Positions 41,962 to 56,531 of a stretch of 64,000 nucleotides of DNA are shown here, piece after piece. The stretch is from contig NZ_BANS01000007.1 in the NCBI RefSeq assembly GCF_000332995.1, positions 1 through 64,000 on the forward strand, read 5' to 3'. The notes beneath the pieces were generated by a model that saw only the letters and a program-made list of their open reading frames with translations, searched no databases and was not told the origin of the DNA. The stretch is from Gordonia amicalis NBRC 100051 = JCM 11271. GTDB lineage: Bacteria > Actinomycetota > Actinomycetes > Mycobacteriales > Mycobacteriaceae. How positions within the stretch are numbered: position 1 is the stretch's first letter; each line of letters starts with the position of its first letter. The position numbers were made by a program, and so were the translations under genes.

Positions 41962-42705
41962 TCAGGAGTCGGGGATCAGCGCGGGGAGGTCTGCGACCGA
42001 GGCGAGCACGGCGTCGGCACCGGCCGCACGGAGGGTGGCCTCGTCGTGTGCGCCCGTGAGGACTCCGACCGAAAGGCCGACGCGCGCACGACGGGCGGTC
42101 TCGATGTCACTGGAGGTGTCGCCGACGACGATCACGTCGGCCAGGTCGTCGACCTGTGCGGTCAGGGCCGCGGCGAGTACGAGATCGGGGTATGGCCGGC
42201 CGCGCAGGCCCGCGGTAGGTGCCAGGACGTGGTCCACGGCCTCGGTCCATCCCAGAGTTCTGAGGATTCGCTGTTGCGTCGCGGGACTGAACCCGGTGGT
42301 GAAGGCGGTCGCGATGCCCCGAGCGCGAAGACCGGCGAGCACTTCGGAAGCCCCCACCACGGGTTCGACTCCGCGGGTGATCAGTTCTCCGTAGGCGCGT
42401 TCGAACTCTTCGTTGGCGGTTTCGGCTGCACCCTCGGCGCCGAAGAGGGCACGAAAGACCGCGATCTTCGATTGCCCCATGGTGTCGAGCACGTACTTGC
42501 GGGCGCGTTCACGTGCCTCTCCCGCCTCGGGGACGCCGACCGCGGTGGCCGCTGCCTCGAAGGCCTGGGTGACGAGACCGTCGTCGACGACGGTGGTACC
42601 GGCCATGTCGAAGACGACCAGCTGAACGGGACCGGTGATGTACTGGGGGACAGTCGAGTCGGTGACCTCCGAGTTCGGTGTGCGGATGCTGCCTGAAGTC
42701 TGCAT
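41962..42705 (-). CDS. Phosphonatase-like HAD hydrolase (TIGR03351-like)
   Basis: The ATG at 42705 gives 247 residues. HAD motif I is QLVVFDMAGTTVVDDGLV (DxAGT form as in phosphonoacetaldehyde hydrolase). Motif II is AFTTGFSPATQQRIL, and motif III/IV is YPDLVLAAALTAQVDDLADVIVVGDTSSDIETARRARV. The PhnX catalytic cap lysine is not obvious, which fits the phosphonatase-like (HpnX) group rather than true PhnX. It is the first gene of the leftward operon, and two PhnF-like operators lie within 100 bp upstream. Confidence 0.85.
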   Translation of the reverse strand: MQTSGSIRTPNSEVTDSTVPQYITGPVQLVVFDMAGTTVVDDGLVTQAFEAAATAVGVPEAGEARERARKYVLDTMGQSKIAVFRALFGAEGAAETANEEFERAYGELITRGVEPVVGASEVLAGLRARGIATAFTTGFSPATQQRILRTLGWTEAVDHVLAPTAGLRGRPYPDLVLAAALTAQVDDLADVIVVGDTSSDIETARRARVGLSVGVLTGAHDEATLRAAGADAVLASVADLPALIPDS

Positions 42706-42722
42706 GCGCACAACTCTCACCT

Positions 42723-42736
42723 TTGGTATAGCCCAA
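42723..42736. promoter_or_regulatory. PhnF-like operator, imperfect
   Basis: TTGGTATAGCCCAA differs by one base from a perfect palindrome TTGGTATAGACCAA. It contains all but one base of the TGGTATAGACCA site known for PhnF of M. smegmatis (HutC/GntR family). It is 18 bp upstream of the hydrolase start. Confidence 0.7.
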
Positions 42737-42780
42737 CTCGGGTGGTTCCTCCGAACTCCAGATGAACACTCGGCTTCCAT

Positions 42781-42794
42781 TTGGTCTAGACCAA
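42781..42794. promoter_or_regulatory. PhnF/HutC-type operator, perfect palindrome
   Basis: TTGGTCTAGACCAA is a perfect 14-bp palindrome of the GTnTAGAC class bound by HutC-subfamily GntR repressors. It lies midway between the hydrolase operon and the broken regulator gene, so it probably served both promoters. Confidence 0.78.
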
Positions 42795-42820
42795 GTTTTG
42801 ATAGCTTCGGCATCATAGAT

Positions 42821-43254
42821 CTGTCCGAGCGGCCGCGGGTTCTGAAGCACCAGGTGGTTCGGTCACGGCTCGAAGAACTGCTGGAAGATCTCGTCGAGGT
42901 CGATCCGTTCCCTGCGGAATGTGAACTCGCCGAATCATTCTCGGTATCCCGCGAGACCATTCGTCAAGCACTCCGAGAACTCTTGCCTATCCCGATCTCG
43001 AGCCGCACTTCGAGGTGTCGTCGTCGCTGTACGCCGAATTCGCGAGGCGCGGAATCAATTTCGGCAGAACGGAGGACACGATCGAGACCACTCTTCCCGA
43101 CGCGCGCGAAGCATTGCTACACATCGACGCGCGTACGCCGATGTTCGTGCTCAAGCGCCAGTCGTACGACGACCAGGGCGTTCCCATCGATTTCCGCCGC
43201 TCACTCTATCGAGGCGATCGGATGGCGTTCACCCAGACGATGTACCCCGACTGA
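42821..43254 (+). pseudogene. Broken GntR/HutC-family regulator of the phosphonate cluster
   Basis: The first part (about 42827-42985) encodes the GntR helix-turn-helix: VLKHQVVRSRLEELLEDLVEVDPFPAECELAESFSVSRETIRQALREL. The frame then changes. From about 42986 the +1-shifted frame reads AYPDLEPHFEVSSSLYAEFARRGINFGRTEDTIETT... to a stop at 43254, the UTRA ligand domain. The linker and about half of the UTRA domain are missing, so an internal deletion with frameshift joins the parts. In addition, no ATG, GTG or TTG lies in frame between the operator and the HTH. The gene cannot make a normal repressor. Confidence 0.8.
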
Positions 43255-43257
43255 CCA

Positions 43258-43929
43258 TCAGTCGGTCCGTTCTTGCCAGGTACACAGGCAGATCTCGTTG
43301 CCTTCGGTGTCGGCGAGAACCCACCACGCGGGCGCGTACTCATCGGTCAGTAGCTGGCCACCCGCAGTGATCGCCGCCTGCAGGCGTTCGTGTACCTCGT
43401 CGTGGGGCACCCACAGATCGAAGTGCACCCGGTTGCGTTCCGGTCGTGGCGAATCCATCTGCTGGAACCAGACGGCAGGCAAACGTCCGGCAGGATCGAT
43501 CAGATCGACGGACTCGTCACCCACCGCGTCGGAGTAGCCGAGCACCGCCCTCCAGAACGGTCGAATGGCTTCGATGTCTTGTGCGTCGATCCCCACGTCG
43601 AACTGGCCGACGGGCTCGGGGAACGTCTCGAGGCCCATCTCAATCGCGATGCCCGCGATGCGGTTCGCCAGTGCGACGTCGGCCTCGGTCAGCTGGTGGG
43701 CACTGTGCGTTGTGAGAACGAGATGCACTGAGCCGTAGCGCAGATCGATGTCGGGGTGGTGGTTCGCCGCCTCGGCCGCGTCGACGATCTTGGTGATGAA
43801 CTCGAGACCCCGCACCATCGAACCGGTGCGATAGGCCGCCTGGAGCTTGTACCCGATCACACGCCAGGGATCGGGTACCGCTTCGGTTGCCTGGGCACGG
43901 GACAGCGGAGTGCGTGTTGAGCCGGTCAT
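43258..43929 (-). CDS. Fusion of pterin-4a-carbinolamine dehydratase-like and VOC domains
   Basis: The 223-residue protein has an N-terminal half like pterin-4a-carbinolamine dehydratase (KLQAAYRTGSMVRGLEFITKIVDAAEAANHHPDIDLRYGSVHLVLTTHSAHQLTEADVALANRIA), including the HHPD motif. The C-terminal half is a glyoxalase/VOC domain (FDVGIDAQDIEAIRPFWRAVLGY, RVHFDLWVPHDEV, WWVLADTEGNEICLC). Such fusions recur in actinobacteria; their substrate is not known. It converges on the broken regulator with 3 bp between stops. The start is ATG at 43929. Confidence 0.85.
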   Translation of the reverse strand: MTGSTRTPLSRAQATEAVPDPWRVIGYKLQAAYRTGSMVRGLEFITKIVDAAEAANHHPDIDLRYGSVHLVLTTHSAHQLTEADVALANRIAGIAIEMGLETFPEPVGQFDVGIDAQDIEAIRPFWRAVLGYSDAVGDESVDLIDPAGRLPAVWFQQMDSPRPERNRVHFDLWVPHDEVHERLQAAITAGGQLLTDEYAPAWWVLADTEGNEICLCTWQERTD

Positions 43930-44034: not shown

Positions 44035-44742
44035 TCAGCGCTGGTTCGACGTCGCTGCGGCCAGTTTGGCGATCGCCTCGGCCGTCGCAGGTAGAAGCCC
44101 GCGTCGAGCGTCCTGGTCCAGCGCGGTCCCGGCACCGATGACCGGGTCGTAGTCGAGGCCGATAACCGTGCCGACCGCCCCGGACACGACCCCGACCAGC
44201 ATGTCCGCGAGGCCTTTCTGCTGTGGCACCGGCAGCTGGGACCCGATCACGACGACGGTGTGCTCGAGCACCCCCGCGCGGTCCCATTCGGTGAAGATGA
44301 TCCGTGCCCGGTTGAGCAGGTCGGGTCGCGGGCTGATCACGAGCACCGGCGTGAGGTTCGGGAGGTCGTCCTCGGCGAGTTCGGGCAGCAGCGTCAGCGG
44401 GTGCGCCCCGGCGTCGACGACCGGCACCGCGCCCTGCCGCCATACCTCCACCACAGCGTCGGTGACTGCTGCCTCCTCGGGAGACAGCCAGAGACCAGTG
44501 CCCGACGCGGTGCGCAGCAACTCTTCGTTGCCGGTTCCGCGGAGTCGGAGTTCGATGTCGCAGTCGTTGCCGGAGGCGTCGACCCACCACGAGAGCAGGC
44601 CGAGCGACGATGCGGCGCGATGTTCGGCGAGGAGGGCCGACACGACAGACGTGCCGACCCCACCGGCGGTGCCACAGACGACGACGGCCCGCTCATCCCA
44701 GGTCTGCGGGTCGCCGTCGCGAGGCTGTATCAGGCCAGTCAT
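44035..44742 (-). CDS. MinD/CpaE-like P-loop protein with degenerate Walker A
   Basis: The 235-residue protein has the fold signature of MinD/ParA-type ATPases: AVVVCGTAGGVGTSVVSALLAEHRA, LLSWWVDASGNDCDIELRLR, VPVVDAGAHPLTLL and TPVLVISPRPDLLNRARIIF. The Walker A motif lacks both lysines of KGGxGKT (it reads GTAGGVGTS), as in Ssd/CpaE-like members. Nucleotide hydrolysis is therefore doubtful. It lies at the downstream edge of the A-B secreted-protein array. A functional link to that array is not shown. Confidence 0.7.
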   Translation of the reverse strand: MTGLIQPRDGDPQTWDERAVVVCGTAGGVGTSVVSALLAEHRAASSLGLLSWWVDASGNDCDIELRLRGTGNEELLRTASGTGLWLSPEEAAVTDAVVEVWRQGAVPVVDAGAHPLTLLPELAEDDLPNLTPVLVISPRPDLLNRARIIFTEWDRAGVLEHTVVVIGSQLPVPQQKGLADMLVGVVSGAVGTVIGLDYDPVIGAGTALDQDARRGLLPATAEAIAKLAAATSNQR

Positions 44743-44825: not shown

Positions 44826-45308
44826 CTACGGGACAAGCATGTGGAAACCCACGAGACCACCTGTGGGTGTCCTGACCGGATTGTTCACCGCGTACGTCGT
44901 GATACCAATGGTCGCCGGACCCGATCCGGTCGGGACATCCCATTCTGTCTTCTCACCGGGACCGGGACCGAATGTTGCTGGCACCCATTTGTGCAGTGCA
45001 TAGCCCCGAAGACTGGTGTAAGTCGTCTGGAACAGTACTCGGCACTTCGGATTTCGTTTCCAGCTGGCGCCGTCACCACCGAATCCGAGTGACCGTGCAG
45101 TCACACGAACCACGCCGCGCTTGTTCTGTGGAGTGTGAATCGCGAGGTTGACAGTGCCACGGCACAGAGAATGGTCTCCCATTGTCGCGAGATTGTGGCC
45201 GTAGAGCGCGATGTTCGGGATTGGCGCAGCGGCCGCACCACCCGCCCCTATGCCGGTGGACACGATCGCGCTGACTCCAGCAATCAATCCGATGAACAGT
45301 CTTCTCAT
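44826..45308 (-). CDS. Small secreted protein, family B copy 1
   Basis: The 160-residue product has a Sec signal peptide (MRRLFIGLIAGVSAIVSTG... with likely cleavage before APIPN). Its mature domain is the same as two other genes in this array. Shared features are GDHSLC (first Cys), NKRGVVRVT, SLGFGGDGASWKRNPKC (second Cys), FGPGPGEKTEWDV, TGSGPATIGITTY and a C-terminal LVP. The two cysteines probably form a disulfide. It is the most diverged copy. It follows the frameshifted A gene by 138 bp. I do not recognise a named family and assign no function. Confidence 0.8.
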   Translation of the reverse strand: MRRLFIGLIAGVSAIVSTGIGAGGAAAAPIPNIALYGHNLATMGDHSLCRGTVNLAIHTPQNKRGVVRVTARSLGFGGDGASWKRNPKCRVLFQTTYTSLRGYALHKWVPATFGPGPGEKTEWDVPTGSGPATIGITTYAVNNPVRTPTGGLVGFHMLVP

Positions 45309-45446
45309 CTCAATCCTCTTCTTGTCCGTCGCATGCTCTTCTCTCCGGCGCGACCCATCCGCGGGGTGAACTCGATCGTGTGCTGAACACTTGCATGTGT
45401 TCGACGGACTGGGTGTAGGGCTGTCACTCTAGCGCTCGTCATAGGA

Positions 45447-46635
45447 CTATTCATTCTCCGTCGGCCAGAGGACTTCACTGCCGGGGATGGCGTTCTTCAA
45501 GCCGTCCGATTGCGCCCTGGTCCAGTCCCGGACGGACTTCTCTGCGCCCTCGCCAAAGACCGAATAGGGCGACCTGGCCTGCGCAGCAGACCATTTCACC
45601 GTCGATGCCCCAACCTTGACGTCCACGTCGCCGCGATGATTGACCACATAATCAACCGCAGGCAGACCCGACCGGCGCGCTTGTTCGGGCGACAAAATGG
45701 AACTCGAACTGATTCACTCCATCAGGCCCAGGCGCCGCATGCCGCGGCCGGTTCTGGCGCCACGGCTCATCTGGGTTCGCACCCGGATCACCAGCACCGA
45801 GCGAGTACGCCAACAAACCGCCCGCGGTACCACCAATCGCCGCACCGAGCGCGGCACCCGCTGCCCCCACCCCGATACCACCAACGGCGGCTCCGATCCC
45901 GGCACCGGCGAGCGAATCGATCCCTGAGGTAGCGCAATATGTGAAGACGCAACCAACGACGGCGCCGGCGATCGCTCCGACCCCGGCCCCACCAACAGCA
46001 CCAACCACCGCCGACGGAATACCCAGCGCGACAGCACCAGCCGTACCGCCGGCCATCACACCGATGATCGTCGCAGCAGCCCGACGACTCGCCTCATCCT
46101 CCGGCACACCCACCGAGATCAGCCCCTGAGCGATCTTCGCCTCGCCATACGCCGACCACGCATTGATCGAGTTCACATCCTTGTCCGACAGACCCTCAGG
46201 AATATCGGTCACGAAGTTGCCCACACGAATCTTGTCCGGCGGCGGCGCAATCGGACGCACCGGCGGAGCAACCTGCGGCACAACAGGATTGTTGATCACC
46301 GGCGAATACGGCCGCTCATAACTCCACGAACTCGCATCGTCGTACGAACGATACGGAGCCTCCACCGGCGGACCCGGAACCGAACCCGGACCCGGCACCA
46401 CCACAGGCTGCACCACCGTGTCACCCGGAGCCGGAGCACCCGGCGCAACATCAGACGGACTCGTACCACCCTGACCCGGCGCCGAATCCGACGGATCAGT
46501 ACCACCCTGCTCCGGAACAGCGAACGCCGCACCCGCACCAGCCGTGATCGACACCGCCACAACAGCAGACGTCACCGACAGAACCGGACCACTCGGGGAC
46601 CGACGCCTACGATGCCGACCACGACTCTGAGACAT
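45447..46635 (-). pseudogene. Family A exported glycine-zipper protein, copy 1, frameshifted
   Basis: The frame opens at ATG 46635 with MSQSRGRHRRRR and a single hydrophobic anchor, then a Pro/Gly-rich linker. The conserved block FVTDIPEGLSDKDVNSINAWSAYGEAKIAQGLISVGVPEDEASRRAAATIIG and a glycine-zipper region follow. At the TTTT run on the coding strand (AAAA at 45694-45697) the frame shifts. Removing one base joins it to the second frame, which carries the C-terminal domain (PEQARRSGLPAVDYVV ... IPGSEVLWPTENE) to a stop at 45447. The intact paralogue at 48011-49201 shows the expected joined form. It may be a real mutation, a slippage site or a sequencing error. Confidence 0.82.
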
Positions 46636-46655
46636 CTCGGTACAACCTTTCTGCG
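45968..46655. repeat. 688-bp direct duplication, copy 1 (family A 5' end)
   Basis: This segment aligns without gaps to 48534-49221 at a constant offset of 2566 bp. By hand I count about 14 mismatches, with the stretch 46104-46410 identical. It covers the start codon, anchor, linker and first part of the glycine zipper of the A gene, including synonymous sites. Recent duplication or gene conversion is implied. Confidence 0.9.
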
Positions 46656-46778
46656 TGACTAGAGAGTGGCAATGCGCTCTACGTATGTCGCGCGAAGACG
46701 ACGCTATGCGTCCGCAACCCAGGACAGGTTCCTGGTCGAATCACTCGACCTGATTCAAGCGACATCCGCGCCCGGCCC

Positions 46779-47258
46779 CTACGGGACCAGGACATAAGCT
46801 CCTCCGTTGTATCCCTGGCGGGCACGTACCGGACTGTTCACCGAATAGGTCGTCAATCCGATCGACGCAGGACCCGATCCGGTGGTGACTTCCCAAGTCT
46901 TCTTCTCGCCTCTACGGGGTCCGAACGACGCGGTTACCCACTTTTCACGACCGAGCCCTTGGGTGCCGCTGTACAACGTATTGATGAGCATGCGGCACTT
47001 CGGGTTCCGCTTCCACGTGGGACCGTTACCGGCGAACCCGAGGGAAGTCACAGTGACCCGGACGACACCCCGCTTCTTTGCCGGGGCGTCGACATCGACC
47101 CTCAGAACGCCGTGACAGAACGAGTGGTCGCCGAACGTTCCGAAAGAGGTGGACGAAGGGAAGTGCGGGATCGGCGCGGCTGTCGCCTGACCTATGCCAC
47201 CCAGGCTTGCAGTCGCCAGTATTGCGGATGTCGCCGCAGTGACCGCTAGTTTCTTCAT
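46779..47258 (-). CDS. Small secreted protein, family B copy 2
   Basis: From ATG 47258 (GGAG site 13 bp upstream) the product has 159 residues. It has a signal peptide MKKLAVTAATSAILATASLG with cleavage before APIPH. The mature part carries GDHSFC, KKRGVVRVT, SLGFAGNGPTWKRNPKC, WVTASFGPRRGEKKTWEV, TGSGPASIGLTTY and a final LVP. It is clearly paralogous to the genes at 44826 and 47430. A 3' scar of an A gene lies 99 bp upstream, so it was once the B partner of a third A gene. No function is assigned. Confidence 0.82.
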   Translation of the reverse strand: MKKLAVTAATSAILATASLGGIGQATAAPIPHFPSSTSFGTFGDHSFCHGVLRVDVDAPAKKRGVVRVTVTSLGFAGNGPTWKRNPKCRMLINTLYSGTQGLGREKWVTASFGPRRGEKKTWEVTTGSGPASIGLTTYSVNSPVRARQGYNGGAYVLVP

Positions 47259-47357
47259 ATCGTTTTCTCCATCCGTCTCACCGTGCGAACAACGTGTCAC
47301 AGCAGGGTCGTCGATGCGGCTTCCAAAGGACCGGTCTGAGCCGACCCTTGACTGCAT

Positions 47358-47395
47358 CTACGCCGTACCCTCGGCCGGCCAAAGAACCTCGCTGC
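47358..47395 (-). pseudogene. 3'-end scar of a third family A gene
   Basis: Read leftward, 47395-47358 encodes SEVLWPAEGTA and then TAG, the same C-terminus as the intact A gene (SEVLWPAEGPA). The DNA CCCTCGGCCGGCCAAAGAAC is identical to the 3' end of that gene. Upstream of the scar the match is lost. The distance from the scar's stop to the next B start (99 bp) equals the A-to-B distance in the intact module (98 bp). It is best explained by deletion of a whole A gene except its last codons. Confidence 0.8.
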
Positions 47396-47429
47396 GGGTC
47401 GCCGTCGCGCGGTGTCGTAGAAGCAGTCA

Positions 47430-47912
47430 CTACGGGACGAGCAAGTAGATCCCTGTGCCGTAACCTTGCTGGAGACGTACCGGACTACTGGCCGAGTATG
47501 TCGCGACGCCGACCGAAGCCGGACCCGATCCTGTCCGAACTTCCCAAACCTTCTTATCGCCCCGCCGCGGGCCAAAGGAACCCGTCACCCACTTCTCCAT
47601 GTTCAGACCTCGAGAGCCGTTGTACAGAGTGCCGAAAAGCACGCGGCACTTCGGGTTCCGCTTCCACGTCGCACCATTCCCAGTGAACCCGGCCGATGTC
47701 GCAGTCACCCGAACAACTCCGCGCTTGTTCGGTGGCGCATCAGCCCTGATGTTCACAGTCCCGTTACAGAAGGAGTGATCGCCAAACGTTGCGAAGCTGC
47801 TCCCAGACCCGTAAACGTGTGGAATCGGAACGGCCGCAGCCTGACCTACGCCCACCAGACCTCCGGACGCAACAACGACAGATGCCGCGGCGATCACTGC
47901 CAGCTTCTTCAT
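47430..47912 (-). CDS. Small secreted protein, family B copy 3
   Basis: The 160-residue product starts at ATG 47912 with the signal peptide MKKLAVIAAASVVVASGGLVG and cleavage near AAA/VPIP. Cys49 (GDHSFC) and Cys89 (WKRNPKC) are conserved in all three copies. NKRGVVRVT, WVTGSFGPRRGDKKVWEV, TGSGPASVGVATY and the terminal LVP are also shared. It follows the intact A gene by 98 bp and is the best model of a complete A-B module. Function unknown; it resembles no enzyme family I recognise. Confidence 0.82.
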   Translation of the reverse strand: MKKLAVIAAASVVVASGGLVGVGQAAAVPIPHVYGSGSSFATFGDHSFCNGTVNIRADAPPNKRGVVRVTATSAGFTGNGATWKRNPKCRVLFGTLYNGSRGLNMEKWVTGSFGPRRGDKKVWEVRTGSGPASVGVATYSASSPVRLQQGYGTGIYLLVP

Positions 47913-48010
47913 CTTGTTCTACCAATCTCGAGCGATGAAAGGGGTTTCAGGTACGCGGCCCGCCGGGTCGGCATACCAGATGAGCGGAACCGAGACGCAC
48001 ACATCTCGTC

Positions 48011-49201
48011 CTATGCGGGGCCCTCGGCCGGCCAAAGAACCTCGCTGCCGGGAATTGTCTTCTTCAAGTTGTCCGACTGCGCCCGTGTCCAGTCTCGAGC
48101 AGACTCCTCCACGCGCGGACCGAAGACCGCATACGGCAGACGCGCTTGGGCACCAGACCATTTGTGGACCGATGAACCGACCTTGACGTTCACATCGCCA
48201 CGGTTGTTGACCACGTAGTCGACAGCAGGAAGGCCACTCCGACGCGCATCCTCCGCCGCAAGGTGGAACTCGAACTGGTTCGCCCCACCACCCTCGGGTG
48301 CCGTGTGTCGAGGACCGTTCTGCCGCCATGGCTCTTCCGGGGTGGCTCCCGGATCACCGGCACCGAGGGAATAGGCAAGGAGGCCGCCCGCCGTGCCGCC
48401 GAGCGCGAAACCAACGGCGGCCCCTGCCGCGGCACCGCCGACACCGCCGACTCCGGCTCCGATCAGGGCGCCTACACCAGCACCATATGGGGCGTTCGCA
48501 CCAGCAGTAGGAACACCGGTGATGATCGCTCCCGCGATCGCTCCGACCCCGGCCCCGCCAACAGCACCAACCACCGCCGACGGAATACCCAGCGCCACAG
48601 CACCTGCCGTACCACCAGCCATCACACCGATGATCGTCGCAGCAGCCCGACGACTGGCCTCGTCCTCCGGCACACCCACCGAGATCAGCCCCTGAGCGAT
48701 CTTCGCCTCGCCATACGCCGACCACGCATTGATCGAGTTCACATCCTTGTCCGACAGACCCTCAGGAATATCGGTCACGAAGTTGCCCACACGAATCTTG
48801 TCCGGCGGCGGCGCAATCGGACGCACCGGCGGAGCAACCTGCGGCACAACAGGATTGTTGATCACCGGCGAATACGGCCGCTCATAACTCCACGAACTCG
48901 CATCGTCGTACGAACGATACGGAGCCTCCACCGGCGGACCCGGAACCGAACCCGGACCCGGCACCACCACAGGCTGGACCACTGTGTCACCCGGAGCCGG
49001 AGCACCCGGCGCAACATCAGACGGACTCGTACCACCCTGACCCGGCGCCGAATCCGACGGATCAGTACCACCCTGCTCCGGAACAGCGAACGCCGCACCC
49101 GCACCAGCCGTGATCGACACCGCCACAACAGCAGACGTCACCGACAGAACCGGACCACTCGGCCTCCGACGCCTACGATGCCGACCACGACTCTGAGACA
49201 T
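48011..49201 (-). CDS. Family A exported glycine-zipper protein, intact copy
   Basis: From ATG 49201 the product has 396 residues. A basic N-terminus (MSQSRGRHRRRRRPSG) leads into one hydrophobic segment that may be an uncleaved anchor or signal. A Gly/Pro/Ser linker follows (residues about 40-125). A conserved block runs from FVTDIPEG to AAATIIGV. A long glycine-zipper stretch comes next (GAVALGIPSAVVGAVGGAGVGAIAGA... through FALGGTAGGLLAY), which could insert in a membrane. The C-terminal soluble domain of about 90 residues is NQFEFHLAAEDARRSGLPAVDYVV ... IPGSEVLWPAEGPA. I do not recognise the family. It heads the array, and its 5' 688 bp is duplicated in the other copy. Confidence 0.8.
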   Translation of the reverse strand: MSQSRGRHRRRRRPSGPVLSVTSAVVAVSITAGAGAAFAVPEQGGTDPSDSAPGQGGTSPSDVAPGAPAPGDTVVQPVVVPGPGSVPGPPVEAPYRSYDDASSWSYERPYSPVINNPVVPQVAPPVRPIAPPPDKIRVGNFVTDIPEGLSDKDVNSINAWSAYGEAKIAQGLISVGVPEDEASRRAAATIIGVMAGGTAGAVALGIPSAVVGAVGGAGVGAIAGAIITGVPTAGANAPYGAGVGALIGAGVGGVGGAAAGAAVGFALGGTAGGLLAYSLGAGDPGATPEEPWRQNGPRHTAPEGGGANQFEFHLAAEDARRSGLPAVDYVVNNRGDVNVKVGSSVHKWSGAQARLPYAVFGPRVEESARDWTRAQSDNLKKTIPGSEVLWPAEGPA

Positions 49202-49248: not shown

Positions 49249-50130
49249 TCATTCGACGGATCTGATGGACTGGATGAATGTCTTGCCGCCCGTCGTCGAC
49301 GTCCGGATGACCTGGCGGTAGGTGATCGGCGCCGCGTCGGGCTGCAGCTCGGTGAGCACGACGGAGTACTCACCGGGAGCCCGTTCGGTGATCTTCAGAC
49401 AATGCCGTGTGCCGATCGGGCGCTGATCGATGTACTGCTGCATGACGTACTCGGAGGCGACGGCACCCGGGGCGGCAACCGCGCGTGCGGCTTTCGCCGA
49501 GCGCAGTACGTAGTAGGCGTGGTTGAACGCGCGGATCGCGCCCGGACCGGACTCCTGGTCGCCCTTCTCGTCGTCGTTCGACACCGTCGTCCCCGACCCG
49601 ACGGGACGCTGCGCACACGCCGGGTTGCGGGCGACCGCTGACGTCGTCGGACTCTCGGTCGGCGAGGCGGATTCGGAGGTTTCCGCAGCCACAGCGGAGC
49701 GCCCGGAGTCGGCACCGGTCATCGAGATTGCGACAACACCTGTGGTCAGAATCACAAGAACTGCCGCTGCCGCACCCGCGATCCGCGGTCCCGAACCCAG
49801 CAATCGGCGCCACCCGGGAGCGAAGCCGGACACGGCCTTTCGCTTCGCGCGGACCGATCTCTCGGCCTCGGCGAGGAAGGCGTCGAGATCGGAAGAGGGC
49901 TTCTCGGGAACAGCGGCCACGGGGGTTTCACCCCTCGTCACCGATCGCCCGACAGGAGTGGCCGGAGCGCCGAGCACTGCCACGGCCGTGTCGCCGACAT
50001 CGCTCTGAACTGCGTCGACGGATCGGAATCGAGCCAGGTGAGCGGCCAGATCGACCGCCGGCGTGGCACCGGAGGGCGGCCAGGGGGCAACATCGGGGAA
50101 CCACAAGGCCTGCGGACGCTGCAGCACCAT
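49249..50130 (-). CDS. Membrane-anchored hypothetical protein with extracytoplasmic domain
   Basis: The ATG at 50130 behind a GGAGGGGG site gives 293 residues. About 130 cytoplasmic residues contain WFPDVAPWPPSGATPAVDLAAHLARFRS and a basic stretch. One membrane segment (IAGAAAAVLVILTTGVVAISM) follows, then a Ser/Thr-rich linker. The C-terminal domain of about 110 residues is NTF2-like in pattern (GAIRAFNHAYYVLRSAKAARAV ... EYSVVLTELQPD...RQVIRTSTTGGKTFIQSI). It ends 47 bp upstream of the A gene start on the same strand, so the array could be transcribed from its promoter. Function unknown. Confidence 0.75.
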   Translation of the reverse strand: MVLQRPQALWFPDVAPWPPSGATPAVDLAAHLARFRSVDAVQSDVGDTAVAVLGAPATPVGRSVTRGETPVAAVPEKPSSDLDAFLAEAERSVRAKRKAVSGFAPGWRRLLGSGPRIAGAAAAVLVILTTGVVAISMTGADSGRSAVAAETSESASPTESPTTSAVARNPACAQRPVGSGTTVSNDDEKGDQESGPGAIRAFNHAYYVLRSAKAARAVAAPGAVASEYVMQQYIDQRPIGTRHCLKITERAPGEYSVVLTELQPDAAPITYRQVIRTSTTGGKTFIQSIRSVE

Positions 50131-50345
50131 GAGACCCCCTCCCCCCGGCTGGTGATCGTCGTTGTCAGTTGTGCACGCGACGACACGACACCAAAGGAAG
50201 ATCCCCCGTGGCGCCGGCACTGCCGTCGCTGATCTCGGGTCACCCTACAACAGCTCTCAGCAACATCTCAGGCGTCATCCACAGGCACGACAGGCACTCA
50301 CCCGACTCTCTGCGCGACCCCAACGCGCTCGCTACGGTCGGAGAC

Positions 50346-53340: not shown

Positions 53341-54852
53341 TTGGGGGCACGTCGCGGACGAAAGCACCGGTCTCAACCGGCGCGGACTGCCATAACACCT
53401 CGTAAACCGTCGCGAGCGACAGCCACCTCGCTGACGATCAGCGCATTGTCTCTCGCCACCATCGTGCCGATCGCCGTCGCCTCGACGAACGTCACCGCCG
53501 TGGTCGAATCCCTCATCGACCGCGGCGTCGTCCGCGAAGCCGCCCAACACGACAACACCAGCGACGTCTTCGCCGACCTGCCCGACGGCACCATCATGGT
53601 CGTCACGCCCGGGACCGACGACACCATGCTGATGCCGCGCAATCTCCCGTACGTCGGCAACCGCCAGGCCCTCATCGTCAACTACACCGAGTCCTTCGGA
53701 CCCGTCATCGCCGGCCGCTCGAACACCATCGCTCCGTTCTCGCCCGGCTACGACGAGTCCAAAGAGCATGCGATGAACCAGAACCTGGCCGTGATGGCCG
53801 CGTTCGCCGAGATGGGCGAGGACCGCCCGTTCGTCGTGTACACCGGCTATTCGCAGGGCGCCGACGCACACGGCGATGCCGCCGAGAATCCACGGGCCTA
53901 CGACGACGACTTCTTCGTCCCGGGCAAGGACATGGTCCTGGTCTCCGACCCGCGGAGCCCCTGGGGCATCAAGGCCTGGCTCGACACCATGCCGTGGCTC
54001 AAGCCGATCGTCGAGGCGGCCGGGATCGACGCGAACGGCGCACGCGACCCGGAGGCCACCGGCAAGGTCGAGGTCGCGTCGGTGATCATCGTCGGCGACC
54101 CGGTCAGCAACTTCCAGTGGGTGTCGTACCGGCCCGTCGCGTCGCTCATCGTCAACGCGGCCGGCTTCCTCACCATCCACTCGGGCACCGGACCGCACAC
54201 GTACGGCGACGTCGAGCGACTGGGTGACCCGAAGGAGTACAAGAGCGGCAACACGACATACCTGGTCTACGACGCCGCGCATCCCCTGGCGCTGTTGGTG
54301 GCTGCCGTCCACGACCAGCTCGGGATCACCTACGACAAAGACGACCTCGCTCGTTGGGACGAACTCGCCGAGGCCTACTACCCGACCCAGGCACCGAACC
54401 CCGACACCGCAGCGGTGCCGGTGACGGCAGTGGACTCGGTCAAGCAGGACCGACCGGGCGACGGCTACACCGTCACCGTTCCGTCCGAGGTGGCGACAGG
54501 CGCGGAGAAGCCGGGTGACCCGCCGAGATCCGGCGGGTTCGTGCCGGGAGGGATCGTTCCGCCGCCGGCCGAGGACGTCCCGACCGACGATCGGACGCCC
54601 GCAGATGACCGCGGCGAGGGCGAGCCCGGCAGCGGAAATGCCGACGACCGGCCCGGCGGCTCCGAAGCGCCGGACTCTGAGGGTTCGGGTTCGGGTTCGG
54701 AGAAACCGGACTCCGGAGACAGCGGAGCCGGGGACTCCGGTTCGCCGACCGGCGGTGACGACTCATCGAGCGCCGGGACGGACCGGGAGAAGTCGGACTC
54801 CGCCGAAACAAGCTCGGCCGGTGGGGATTCGACGGACCGCGAGGCCGCCTGA
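53341..54852 (+). CDS. PE-PPE-domain secreted esterase with acidic Ser/Gly-rich tail
   Basis: A TTG at 53341 with a GTAGGAGG site gives 503 residues. A basic N-terminus and hydrophobic segment at about residues 25-48 serve as signal or anchor. Residues 70-330 are a PE-PPE (PF08237) alpha/beta-hydrolase domain: the nucleophile elbow is VVYTGYSQGA, with IIVGDPVSNFQW later and HSGTGPHTYGDV. The last 130 residues are disordered, acidic and rich in Asp/Ser/Gly/Glu. Mycobacterial homologues act on lipids of the cell wall. The gene is not part of a PE/PPE pair here. Confidence 0.85.
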   Translation: MGARRGRKHRSQPARTAITPRKPSRATATSLTISALSLATIVPIAVASTNVTAVVESLIDRGVVREAAQHDNTSDVFADLPDGTIMVVTPGTDDTMLMPRNLPYVGNRQALIVNYTESFGPVIAGRSNTIAPFSPGYDESKEHAMNQNLAVMAAFAEMGEDRPFVVYTGYSQGADAHGDAAENPRAYDDDFFVPGKDMVLVSDPRSPWGIKAWLDTMPWLKPIVEAAGIDANGARDPEATGKVEVASVIIVGDPVSNFQWVSYRPVASLIVNAAGFLTIHSGTGPHTYGDVERLGDPKEYKSGNTTYLVYDAAHPLALLVAAVHDQLGITYDKDDLARWDELAEAYYPTQAPNPDTAAVPVTAVDSVKQDRPGDGYTVTVPSEVATGAEKPGDPPRSGGFVPGGIVPPPAEDVPTDDRTPADDRGEGEPGSGNADDRPGGSEAPDSEGSGSGSEKPDSGDSGAGDSGSPTGGDDSSSAGTDREKSDSAETSSAGGDSTDREAA

Positions 54853-54871: not shown

Positions 54872-55525
54872 TCAGCTCGACCCGAACAGATTTCCCAGGC
54901 TTCCGTTGCCCGAGTCGCCGCCACCGGTGTCACCACCACTGTCGCCGCCACCGGTGTCACCACCACCGCCGTCGCCGCCACCGGTATCGCCACCACCACT
55001 GTCGCCACCACCCGGGTTGTCGGGAGCCTTGCCGGTTCCGGTCACGGTGTAGACCTGCGCGAGGCCGTTGATGGTCAGACCGAGGACCGGGTCGGGGGTC
55101 GTGCATTCCTGGTAGATCGCATACGACGTGTCCGTCCGGTTGGAGACCCACGTTCCGGTCGACGAGGCGTCCTTGGCGATCGACACGCCACTCCATACGA
55201 CGCGGAGCGCACCCTCGGCCGCATCCGCACGAGCGCTGTCGAGCACCGCGGACTCGATACCCGAGGCGATGATCGCGTTGACGGCGGCCGCGCGCAGAGT
55301 GAGCTGGTTCTCCTTGCTCGCGTCATGGACGGACAGCCAACACGTCGCCGTCTTCGACGTCTCGTTGGTCACGTTCACGGTCACTGCACCATTGCTCAGC
55401 GACTGTGTGTGGGGGTACGACGACGGCAGAAGCAGCGCCGCCGAAGCCTCTCCGCTCCCGGTGAATGCCACCGCGGCTCCAGCCGCCACTCCGATTCCGG
55501 CCAGCGCCATCCGCGAAAACCGCAT
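54872..55525 (-). CDS. Secreted protein, paralogue 1, with Gly-Asp-rich tail
   Basis: The 217-residue product has a signal peptide (MRFSRMALAGIGVAAGAAVAF...ASA). The mature domain of about 140 residues contains SYPHTQSLSNGAVTVNVTNETSKTATCWLSVHDA, a central helical region and TSYAIYQECTTPDPVLGLTINGLAQVYTVTGTGKAP, with two cysteines. The last 45 residues repeat GGGDSGGGDTGGGD-like units. A close paralogue lies next upstream. I do not recognise the family. The opposite orientation to the PE-PPE gene (convergent, 19 bp apart) argues against co-transcription. Confidence 0.8.
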   Translation of the reverse strand: MRFSRMALAGIGVAAGAAVAFTGSGEASAALLLPSSYPHTQSLSNGAVTVNVTNETSKTATCWLSVHDASKENQLTLRAAAVNAIIASGIESAVLDSARADAAEGALRVVWSGVSIAKDASSTGTWVSNRTDTSYAIYQECTTPDPVLGLTINGLAQVYTVTGTGKAPDNPGGGDSGGGDTGGGDGGGGDTGGGDSGGDTGGGDSGNGSLGNLFGSS

Positions 55526-55721
55526 CTGTTCCCTTTCGTACACGTGATTCATTGCCCTACAACACGTGTCGTAGGCGCACCCCGACAAGATCGACAACCT
55601 CGGGGAATTGAGCGTTCTGATTTGGTGCGGGCACAGCGATGCACCCAGAGCAGCGATGTGACATTGACGCCGCCGGGGGGTCAAAGGATCTCGGCCCGCC
55701 GATCCCCCACCGTCCGAGGAA

Positions 55722-56288
55722 CTATCCGAGGAGTCCGCCGAACAGACCTGCGAGGCTGCCGTTGCCCGAATCGTCAGGCGAGTCAGGAGACTTGCCGGTT
55801 CCGGTCACGGTGTAGACCTGCGCGAGGCCGTTGATCGTCAAGCCGAGGATCGGATCGGGGGTCGTGCACTCCTGGTAGATCGCATACGACGTGTCGGTCC
55901 GGCCCGAGGCCCACCACCCGGTCGACGAGCCGTCCTTGGCGATGCTCTTGCCGTTCCACACGACCTTGAGCGCACCTTCGGCTGCATCCTCACGAGCGCT
56001 GTCGAGCACCCCCGACTCGATACCGGTGGCGATGATCGCGTTGACGGCCGTGGCGCGCATCTTGAGTTCGGTCTCGTCGCTCGCCTTGTGGACGGACAGC
56101 CAGCACGTCGCCGTCTTCGACGTCTTGTTGGTCACCTTCACGGCCACCGTGCCATTACTGAGGGATTGTGTGTGAGGGTACGACGACGACAGAAGCAGCG
56201 CTGCCGATGCCTCTCCCGATCCGGAGAACCCCATCGCAGCCGCAGCCGCCACCCCGATTCCTACTGCCGCCACCTTCGTGAATCGCAT
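55722..56288 (-). CDS. Secreted protein, paralogue 2, without Gly-rich tail
   Basis: From ATG 56288 (AAAGG site) the product has 188 residues; an ATG two codons upstream is too close to the ribosome site. The signal peptide and mature domain match paralogue 1 closely (SYPHTQSLSNGTVAVKVTNKTSKTATCWLSVHKA; TSYAIYQECTTPDPILGLTINGLAQVYTVTGTGKSP), including both cysteines. The tail is only GNGSLAGLFGGLLG. The pair arose by tandem duplication, followed by growth or loss of the Gly-rich tail. Confidence 0.8.
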   Translation of the reverse strand: MRFTKVAAVGIGVAAAAAMGFSGSGEASAALLLSSSYPHTQSLSNGTVAVKVTNKTSKTATCWLSVHKASDETELKMRATAVNAIIATGIESGVLDSAREDAAEGALKVVWNGKSIAKDGSSTGWWASGRTDTSYAIYQECTTPDPILGLTINGLAQVYTVTGTGKSPDSPDDSGNGSLAGLFGGLLG

Positions 56289-56531
56289 CCACATACCTTT
56301 CCCAGCCCCTGATCCGTTGCGCGTCAACAGGTGCCGTAGGCACTCTCCAACGGATTGATTACGCGGGAACATTAGCAGACCGAATTAGAGATTCGGCCGG
56401 ATACCGTTTCAACAATCGCCGATCATGGCCCCAATCCGTTCCGGATAGATCAATCGACCAGAATGCCTCAACAATTGGTTCAAATGACCCACTGATTGCT
56501 TGGCGGGCCATTCCTCCGAACAAGTGACAAT

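Follow-up and report, generated by a model that had tools for sequence, protein, structure and literature searches.

The 64,000-nt stretch of DNA analysed in the present study (the window) comprises positions 1 to 64,000 of contig NZ_BANS01000007.1 of Gordonia amicalis NBRC 100051 = JCM 11271 and carries on its minus strand an array of genes from two alternating families of exported proteins, designated A and B, enclosed by two further genes, c3 and c2. The proteins A, c3 and c2 are most plausibly taken as components of plasmid conjugation machines, because the same genes sit in plasmid conjugation operons; the descent of c3-A-c2 from this source is well supported by homology and gene order. 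Within Gordonia, a genus of soil bacteria, A and B form a duplicating module. It is possible, and is proposed here tentatively, that a conjugation-derived envelope protein has been reused together with the secreted B for diversifying contact or self-recognition, with the chromosomal A displayed, the B proteins acting as partners or antidotes and the modules being reshuffled.

Organisation of the array

The window corresponds to contig C88 of a genome of 4.9 Mb in 94 contigs. All features described in this section lie on the minus strand, where the order from 5' to 3' is c3-A1-B1-(A scar)-B2-A2-B3-c2; this row is probably one operon. The first cassette gene, c3 (49249..50220), is an open reading frame (ORF) for a membrane protein. 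It is followed by the ORF of A1 (48011..49201), an intact A of 396 amino acids (aa) with an ATG at 49201, and by the ORF of B1 (47430..47912), a small secreted protein with a signal peptide recognised by eye. An A scar of 41 nt (47358..47398), 88% identical to the 3' end of A1 (48011-48051), lies upstream of the second secreted B, B2 (46779..47258), whose ORF is open from 47357. The second A, A2 (45447..46635), precedes the third secreted B, B3 (44826..45308), and the last cassette gene, c2 (44035..44742), encodes a P-loop-like protein (GGVGTS).

All elements of the A-B-(A scar)-B-A-B order described in an initial annotation of this DNA were confirmed, as was the A-to-B spacing of about 98 bp in two modules: the gaps are 98 bp for A1-B1 and 99 bp for the scar and B2, and the third, A2-B3, is 138 bp. 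A2 is not an intact copy, since its frame is broken between the linker and the C-terminal domain and it reads as two pieces (45652-46635 and 45447-45695). The genes c3 upstream and c2 downstream, which directly flank the array on the same strand, had been omitted, and they are the key to what A is.

The DNA of A1 and A2 matches at 97% over 300 nt and that of the B copies at 66-73% over 116-191 nt, a similarity so high that chance is ruled out as the cause of the array. Among the B proteins, B1 is 67% identical to B2 and 55% identical to B3. Elsewhere in the same genome A had no match at E<=0.1; for B, one clear distant match was found on contig C31 (34%, E 3.7e-15), together with three further weak matches (E 0.03-0.3).

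Properties of the encoded proteins

A1 is built of a signal peptide, a Pro-rich stalk, a conserved helical part, two Gly-rich zipper segments and a C-terminal domain. The N-terminus, with a basic n-region, a hydrophobic stretch and an AFA-VP site, reads by eye as a cleavable signal peptide, and the predicted export of A is well grounded. The zipper segments (48341..48649, residues 186-288) flank a hypervariable hinge (48461..48529, residues 225-247). Residues 186-288 contain 14 GxxxG motifs against a shuffle mean of 8.8 (p 0.014) and 12 (G/A/S)xxxGxxxG motifs against 5.0 (p 0.002), which qualifies the region as a glycine zipper. The Pfam glycine-zipper models fit A weakly (Gly-zipper_Omp, E 0.72 for A2; best E 0.0034, in two of 28 relatives), and A1 had no Pfam family at E<=1. 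In the AlphaFold2 (AF2) model of A1 the confident part is the C-terminal domain (48017..48277, residues 309-395), with blocks at a predicted local distance difference test (pLDDT) of 82-92; most of the zipper part is below 50. A PDB match to the C-terminal domain was not found at E<=0.001. Of the earlier description of A as an anchored Pro-rich glycine-zipper protein, the stalk, the zipper and the C-terminal domain stood; the anchoring became uncertain, as the AFA-VP site reads as cleavable.

B consists of a signal peptide (by eye) and a predicted beta-sandwich of about 133 aa with two invariant cysteines (AF2 mean pLDDT 90.6 for B1), in agreement with its description as a small secreted protein with two conserved cysteines. 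In a Foldseek search the MspA porin rim domain (2v9u) ranked second for the B model (probability 0.91, E 0.024, template modelling score 0.34, root-mean-square deviation 7.4), a fold match too weak to claim kinship with the MspA porins, and the comparison of 36 B proteins with Pfam at E<=0.1 contained no MspA match. Neither family reached a curated Pfam or NCBIfam cut-off in the window, which supports the view of A and B as undescribed families; the profile searches and structure predictions proposed for each protein alone led to no known family. The PADLOC collection of known and candidate defence proteins matched none of seven proteins at E<=0.1.

The c3 protein has an N part, one transmembrane helix (by eye) and an exported C-terminal domain; C164 and C236 are invariant in an alignment of 23 proteins. 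The label ParA/MinD-like for c2 is our own and derives from its motif and from a sub-threshold BcsQ match of the plasmid homolog.

Similarity to plasmid conjugation operons

On plasmid pGKT1 the gene order is cutinase, c3, A, c2, DUF6668, six unnamed genes, SCO6880, a VirB4-like gene, one gene and a transglycosylase. The SCO6880 assignment is above the family cut-off (E 6e-148), and the match to a VirB4 model (E 5e-10) is far below the cut-off of that model. Plasmids GlSt389 p2, pGOR1 and pCP113 have the same order, extending to a TraM-recognition (coupling) protein, with several genes of pCP113, including A, c2 and VirB4-like, matching in pieces; pKB1 has a similar operon in which a c2 match is absent. 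The c2 protein of the window is 47% identical to the product of the gene after A on pGKT1, and c3 is 50% identical, over 120 residues of the exported domain, to the homolog directly before A. In another genus, locus L194 runs from cutinase-c3-A-c2-DUF6668 on through SCO6880. The conjugation of pFiD188, a plasmid of R. fascians, is reported to be enhanced by a secreted cutinase (PMC6794481).

The operons of the type IV secretion systems (T4SS) of these five plasmids thus resemble the array in gene order, orientation and the homology of A, c3 and c2, established pairwise for c2 and c3 on pGKT1 and by profile otherwise. On the plasmids a cutinase gene lies upstream. The window differs in having B genes and A duplications. 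No B lies beside A on the five plasmids, pGOR1 having a distant B about 11 kb away, and of the 13 A loci whose fetched stretch includes DUF6668 or SCO6880 (several from near-identical plasmids) none had a B within 3 kb of A. A second kind of plasmid locus, the FtsK type (pGo-1, pSMJS1.2 and a G040 contig), shares with the window c3-A-B on one strand, but is plasmid-borne, has a single diverged B (31-33% on pGo-1 and pSMJS1.2) and has no c2 match; B was present in three of four FtsK-type loci scanned. In PLSDB, 23 plasmids matched A (E<=1e-5) and five matched B (E<=0.01), all of them from Gordonia.

Within 30000-64000 of the window the DUF6668, SCO6880, VirB4-like and coupling proteins of pGKT1 and p2 were unmatched at E<=1e-5, and the same threshold gave no match to their VirB4-like, SCO6880 and coupling proteins in loci L072-L091. 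Since c3, A and c2 are homologous to operon genes and no match to these machine genes was obtained nearby, the array of the window is T4SS-derived without being itself a T4SS.

Between DUF6668 and SCO6880, several Gordonia plasmids and another genus share a run of unnamed genes (L108 12625-16658 and equivalents), which may hold further parts of the conjugation machine.

Association of A and B

In a survey of 59 Gordonia genomes, A was matched in 34 and B in 28. The linkage counts took 71 of 77 B rows (E<=3.6e-9) and 66 of 81 A rows, weak rows being dropped. Of the 71 retained B matches, 65 have an A no more than 5 kb away, which shares their strand in 55 cases and is on the opposite strand in 10. 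Every one of the 26 genomes that retain a B also belongs to the 31 that retain an A (Fisher p 7e-12, without correction for relatedness). A B follows within 1 kb downstream on the same strand in 24 of the 54 long A matches (those above 900 nt), leaving 30 without. For the proximity of the cassette genes, these 54 A rows were compared with 42 of 45 c3 rows and all 31 c2 rows: c3 is found within 600 bp upstream on the same strand for 37 of the 54, and 27 of the 31 c2 matches are downstream of a long A, within 9 kb and on the same strand.

The arrays vary in composition. The order is A-B-A-B-A-B-A-B in G056, A-B-B-a-B-B-a-B in G025 (a denotes a C-terminal A fragment) and A-B-B-B in G014, G021 and G038, and across loci one A is followed by one to four tandem divergent B genes. 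Four C-terminal A fragments, each just before a B, are known: the scar of the window, two in G025 and a detached piece in G056. A-B loci with neither c3 nor c2 in the fetched stretch are L074, L075, L078, L084, L086 and L087. The linkage counts, the varied arrays and the loci away from c3 and c2 make A-B real as a duplicating unit within Gordonia, and its modularity in this genus is well supported. Long A genes are also kept in G033 without any B match, and G028 holds only a B remnant.

In G051 an A-B array (L074) and a c3-c2 pair without A (L107) share one contig with about 51 kb between them, as though A-B had left the cassette. In G056 about 1.3 kb separate the linker of one A (L073 9688-11024) from its C-terminal domain, a split near the break position of A2 in the window.

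Across 401 genomes of the family (Gordonia among them), matches to B were found in 74 and matches to A in at least 173; among the matches listed, many A rows end short of the C-terminal domain. Two of six fetched B loci from other genera (L183, L184) had an A in the stretch of 14-16 kb, both having been chosen because an A match was near; in L184, A and B are on opposite strands and c3 is absent from the stretch. Nine further A loci had no B and all had c3, on either side of A, so that in total c3 was near in 10 and B in two of the 11 A loci fetched. The pair as duplicating unit, claimed by the initial annotation, therefore holds inside Gordonia and is not supported as a general rule; likewise, the neighbourhood survey it had proposed found A and B linked in this genus and mostly apart outside it. 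B relatives of another genus (g18) were seen without A in one shared gene setting (L180, L181).

Evolution of the array

Compared in blocks of 60 bases, the DNA of A1 and A2 has 56-60 identical positions per block between the start codon and about codon 218, and 32-48 (about 53-80%) thereafter. A similar boundary is present among the three A copies of G056, where pS (synonymous differences per site) is 0.00-0.04 as far as residue 193 and reaches 0.60-0.84 from the hinge onwards. Recombination evidently homogenises the N-terminal half of A between copies, as these alignments show, and the same comparisons give A the layout of a fixed front end followed by back-end modules that can be exchanged. 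The hinge has a mean pairwise aa identity of 0.32 among 12 chromosomal A proteins, versus 0.71-0.92 in other regions, and the ratio of nonsynonymous to synonymous differences (pN/pS) is 0.67 in the hinge versus 0.11-0.35 elsewhere in A, a ratio that is rough because synonymous sites are near saturation in the C-terminal half. The flanking gene c5 adjoins c2 in all 11 other genomes with a c2 at least 82% identical (12 including the window), so the site is fixed while the content of the array turns over.

When 54 A proteins were placed on a tree, a branch of low support (36/26) had all 31 chromosomal ones on the same side, the outgroup branches being long; these 31 need one change on the tree versus a shuffled mean of 17.7. 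The PGA/PGP motif occurs in 14 of 18 plasmid hinges versus five of 31 chromosomal hinges. Hinge distances were compared for pairs binned by core distance up to 0.40. They were 0.20 for chromosomal (2 pairs) and 0.11 for plasmid pairs (17) at core distances of 0-0.05, 0.46 (9) and 0.28 (8) at 0.05-0.10, 0.61 (44) and 0.33 (2) at 0.10-0.15, and 0.73 (43) and 0.62 (1) at 0.15-0.20. At 0.20-0.25 they were 0.59 for both (16 and 15 pairs), at 0.25-0.30 0.78 (63) and 0.39 (35), and at 0.30-0.40 0.78 (190) and 0.75 (54). The idea of a hinge conserved on plasmids and variable on chromosomes was only partly borne out, the plasmid hinges being the more uniform in some of these classes and not in others. 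B distance tracks all parts of A (r 0.33-0.72).

Neighbouring genes

Directly after c2, the minus strand carries a fusion of a pterin-4a-carbinolamine dehydratase with a Glyoxalase_6 domain (43258-43929), a gene present in two tandem copies in G025. A GntR-like regulator (by eye) at 42635-43254 on the plus strand seems to be frame-broken, its N- and C-terminal parts lying in different frames; its relatives in L079 and L080 are ORFs of 238 aa.

On the other side of the array, a small duplicated exported family is encoded on the minus strand at 54872-56372, about 4.7 kb from c3. Its members are two related secreted proteins of 270 and 216 aa in tandem; a scan that covered the first of them found no Pfam family above cut-off. 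The plus strand encodes at 53341-54852 an exported serine-hydrolase-like protein with GYSQGA and a weak likeness to the plasmid cutinase (30% over 99 aa). Relatives of this protein occur near the island in four other fetched loci, and it may either be left over from the plasmid operon or have no connection with it.

Possible function of the array

In the plasmid machine A would cross the mycolate envelope, its Pro-rich stalk spanning the cell wall, and would serve the mating channel; A is presumably required for plasmid transfer. The glycine-zipper hairpin would sit in the outer mycomembrane, the cell's own or a neighbour's, and expose the hinge. On the chromosome, A would still be set up by the c3 and c2 of the island for display at the cell surface, and the secreted B would be a soluble partner or antidote that binds A or the target of A. 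Recombination would reshuffle modules of hinge, C-terminal domain and B against the constant N-terminal half, leading to lineage-specific sets of surface variants, and these might act in contact-dependent recognition of self and non-self, by antagonism or by blocked mating. We infer the placement of A in the mycomembrane and its role in recognition; antagonism by the A-B system is possible, and the end effect of the chromosomal pair could be killing, exclusion or adhesion. The array may let cells tell kin from strangers. A more specific version is unlikely: a conjugation envelope component captured by the chromosome for contact-dependent kin discrimination, whose zipper hairpin inserts into the neighbour's mycomembrane and whose hinge sets specificity, with the beta-sandwich B proteins as extracellular antidotes and the repertoire rebuilt by recombination at a fixed locus. 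The cell-surface, interbacterial or envelope-stress role suggested at the outset was sharpened by the relatives of A in conjugation operons, and nothing was found pointing to envelope stress.

Several observations weigh against the proposed reuse for recognition. In other genera B is mostly apart from A, so the original job of B need not involve A. Coevolution of the A hinge with B is weak (partial Mantel r 0.19, p 0.015, 21 pairs, with the conserved half controlled): the B proteins of L075 and L084 are 95% identical with hinges at 32%, and those of L081 and L082 are 87% identical with hinges at 35%. Relative to the protein core, the hinge was not significantly faster on chromosomes than on plasmids in a nearest-neighbour test (p 0.28). 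A chromosomal-type A was likewise present in nine of the 11 genomes from which plasmid-like A loci were fetched, all except G011 and G036, and this coexistence gives no hint of exclusion. A is interrupted in A2 of the window, in G034, in one G056 copy, in G007:C1:4208058 and in G041:C2, some cases being perhaps assembly errors, and A is therefore hardly essential. Finally, profiles of A and B gave no function-telling match in the PDB.

It is doubtful that the array is a toxin-immunity system in which a glycine-zipper protein, A, depolarises membranes from its place on the cell surface and the secreted B confers immunity outside the cell, with the B arrays corresponding to the immunity strings of type VII secretion systems (T7SS). 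Such a system would account for the zipper enrichment of A, for the single A followed by tandem divergent B genes and for the C-terminal A fragments before a B, which resemble orphan toxin/immunity modules, and precedents are reported in the glycine-zipper toxin EsxX with ExiCD/ExiAB and in TspA/TsaI (PMC12744356), and in CdzC/CdzD (PMC5380434). The T7SS strings (TspA/TsaI, EsaD/EsaG), as outlined in PMC9484751 and PMC12744356, likewise combine a polymorphic toxin, which in TspA has a glycine zipper, with tandem divergent partner genes. There, recombination of partner copies is reported for esaG and tipC, with little evidence for tsaI (PMC12744356; PMC9484751), whereas here it is A, not the partner, that is seen to recombine; TsaI is described as membrane-bound, unlike the soluble and secreted B, and a soluble secreted immunity protein would be unusual. 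The LXG domain that T7SS LXG toxins (TspA, EsxX) carry at the N-terminus had no match in A (Pfam, E<=1 for A1; Gly-zipper_Omp alone, at E 0.72, for A2), and the array is not a member of the LXG family. CdzC/CdzD of Caulobacter are reported as surface-associated glycine-zipper proteins which, with an immunity gene, form a contact-dependent bacteriocin (PMC5380434), but they use type I secretion, and no sequence link to the array was shown. The polymorphic systems of contact-dependent inhibition (CDI) and Rhs have a constant N-terminal part, an exchanged C-terminal part with its cognate gene, and orphan C-terminal modules. In the array a constant/variable boundary and C-terminal fragments were observed, but the pairing of A with B is weak, and the C-terminal domain of A is one family, without swaps for unrelated domains. 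Further against a toxin-immunity pair are the conjugation operons carrying A without B and the long A genes of G033, with only a B remnant in G028. Close tracking of the hinge with the adjacent B, which such a pair would be expected to show, came out weak.

Equally questionable is entry or surface exclusion, in which a conjugation machine entering the cell would have its matching component jammed or recognised by the chromosomal A, acting with c3, c2 and B. The direct homology of c3-A-c2 to plasmid conjugation operons and the conserved chromosomal site fit this idea, but the two types of A coexist in most of the genomes concerned, and the PGA/PGP counts make the plasmid and chromosomal hinge sets look unmatched. 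It is quite unlikely that A is a surface protein whose antigenic variation answers phage or predator attack, with B as a cap or envelope component. A hypervariable hinge between two zipper segments under purifying selection is what an exposed loop would show; the coupling of A with B and the growth of the array are left unexplained, and B had no match in phage records at E<=0.01. Least of all is the array expected to be a decaying, functionless remnant of an integrated conjugative element, a highly improbable reading despite the frame-broken A copy, the scar and the motor genes missing from the scanned part of the window: outside the hinge A is under purifying selection by its pN/pS, and the array occupies the same site in 12 genomes including the window.

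Significance of the array

To our knowledge, the passage of plasmid DNA across the mycolic-acid outer membrane of Mycobacteriales is poorly understood. The unannotated trio c3, A and c2 stays with the cutinase and ATPase genes of plasmids, and A is a candidate for an envelope-crossing part. Among the titles and abstract openings listed for open-licence PubMed Central (PMC) papers, no account of the array was found; a single paper came up for SCO6880, DUF6668 or 'insoluble domain protein', and of the three it mentions SCO6880 alone. The gene-duplication logic of the array is ordinary; what is new is that an unannotated part of a mycolate conjugation operon has turned into a diversifying chromosomal array with a secreted partner. 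The chromosomal arrays represent a natural experiment, in which a part of a conjugation machine no longer serves DNA transfer, has become diverse at a single loop and has acquired secreted proteins as partners. If it is true that A and B recognise each other, Gordonia would have a contact-recognition system made of conjugation parts.

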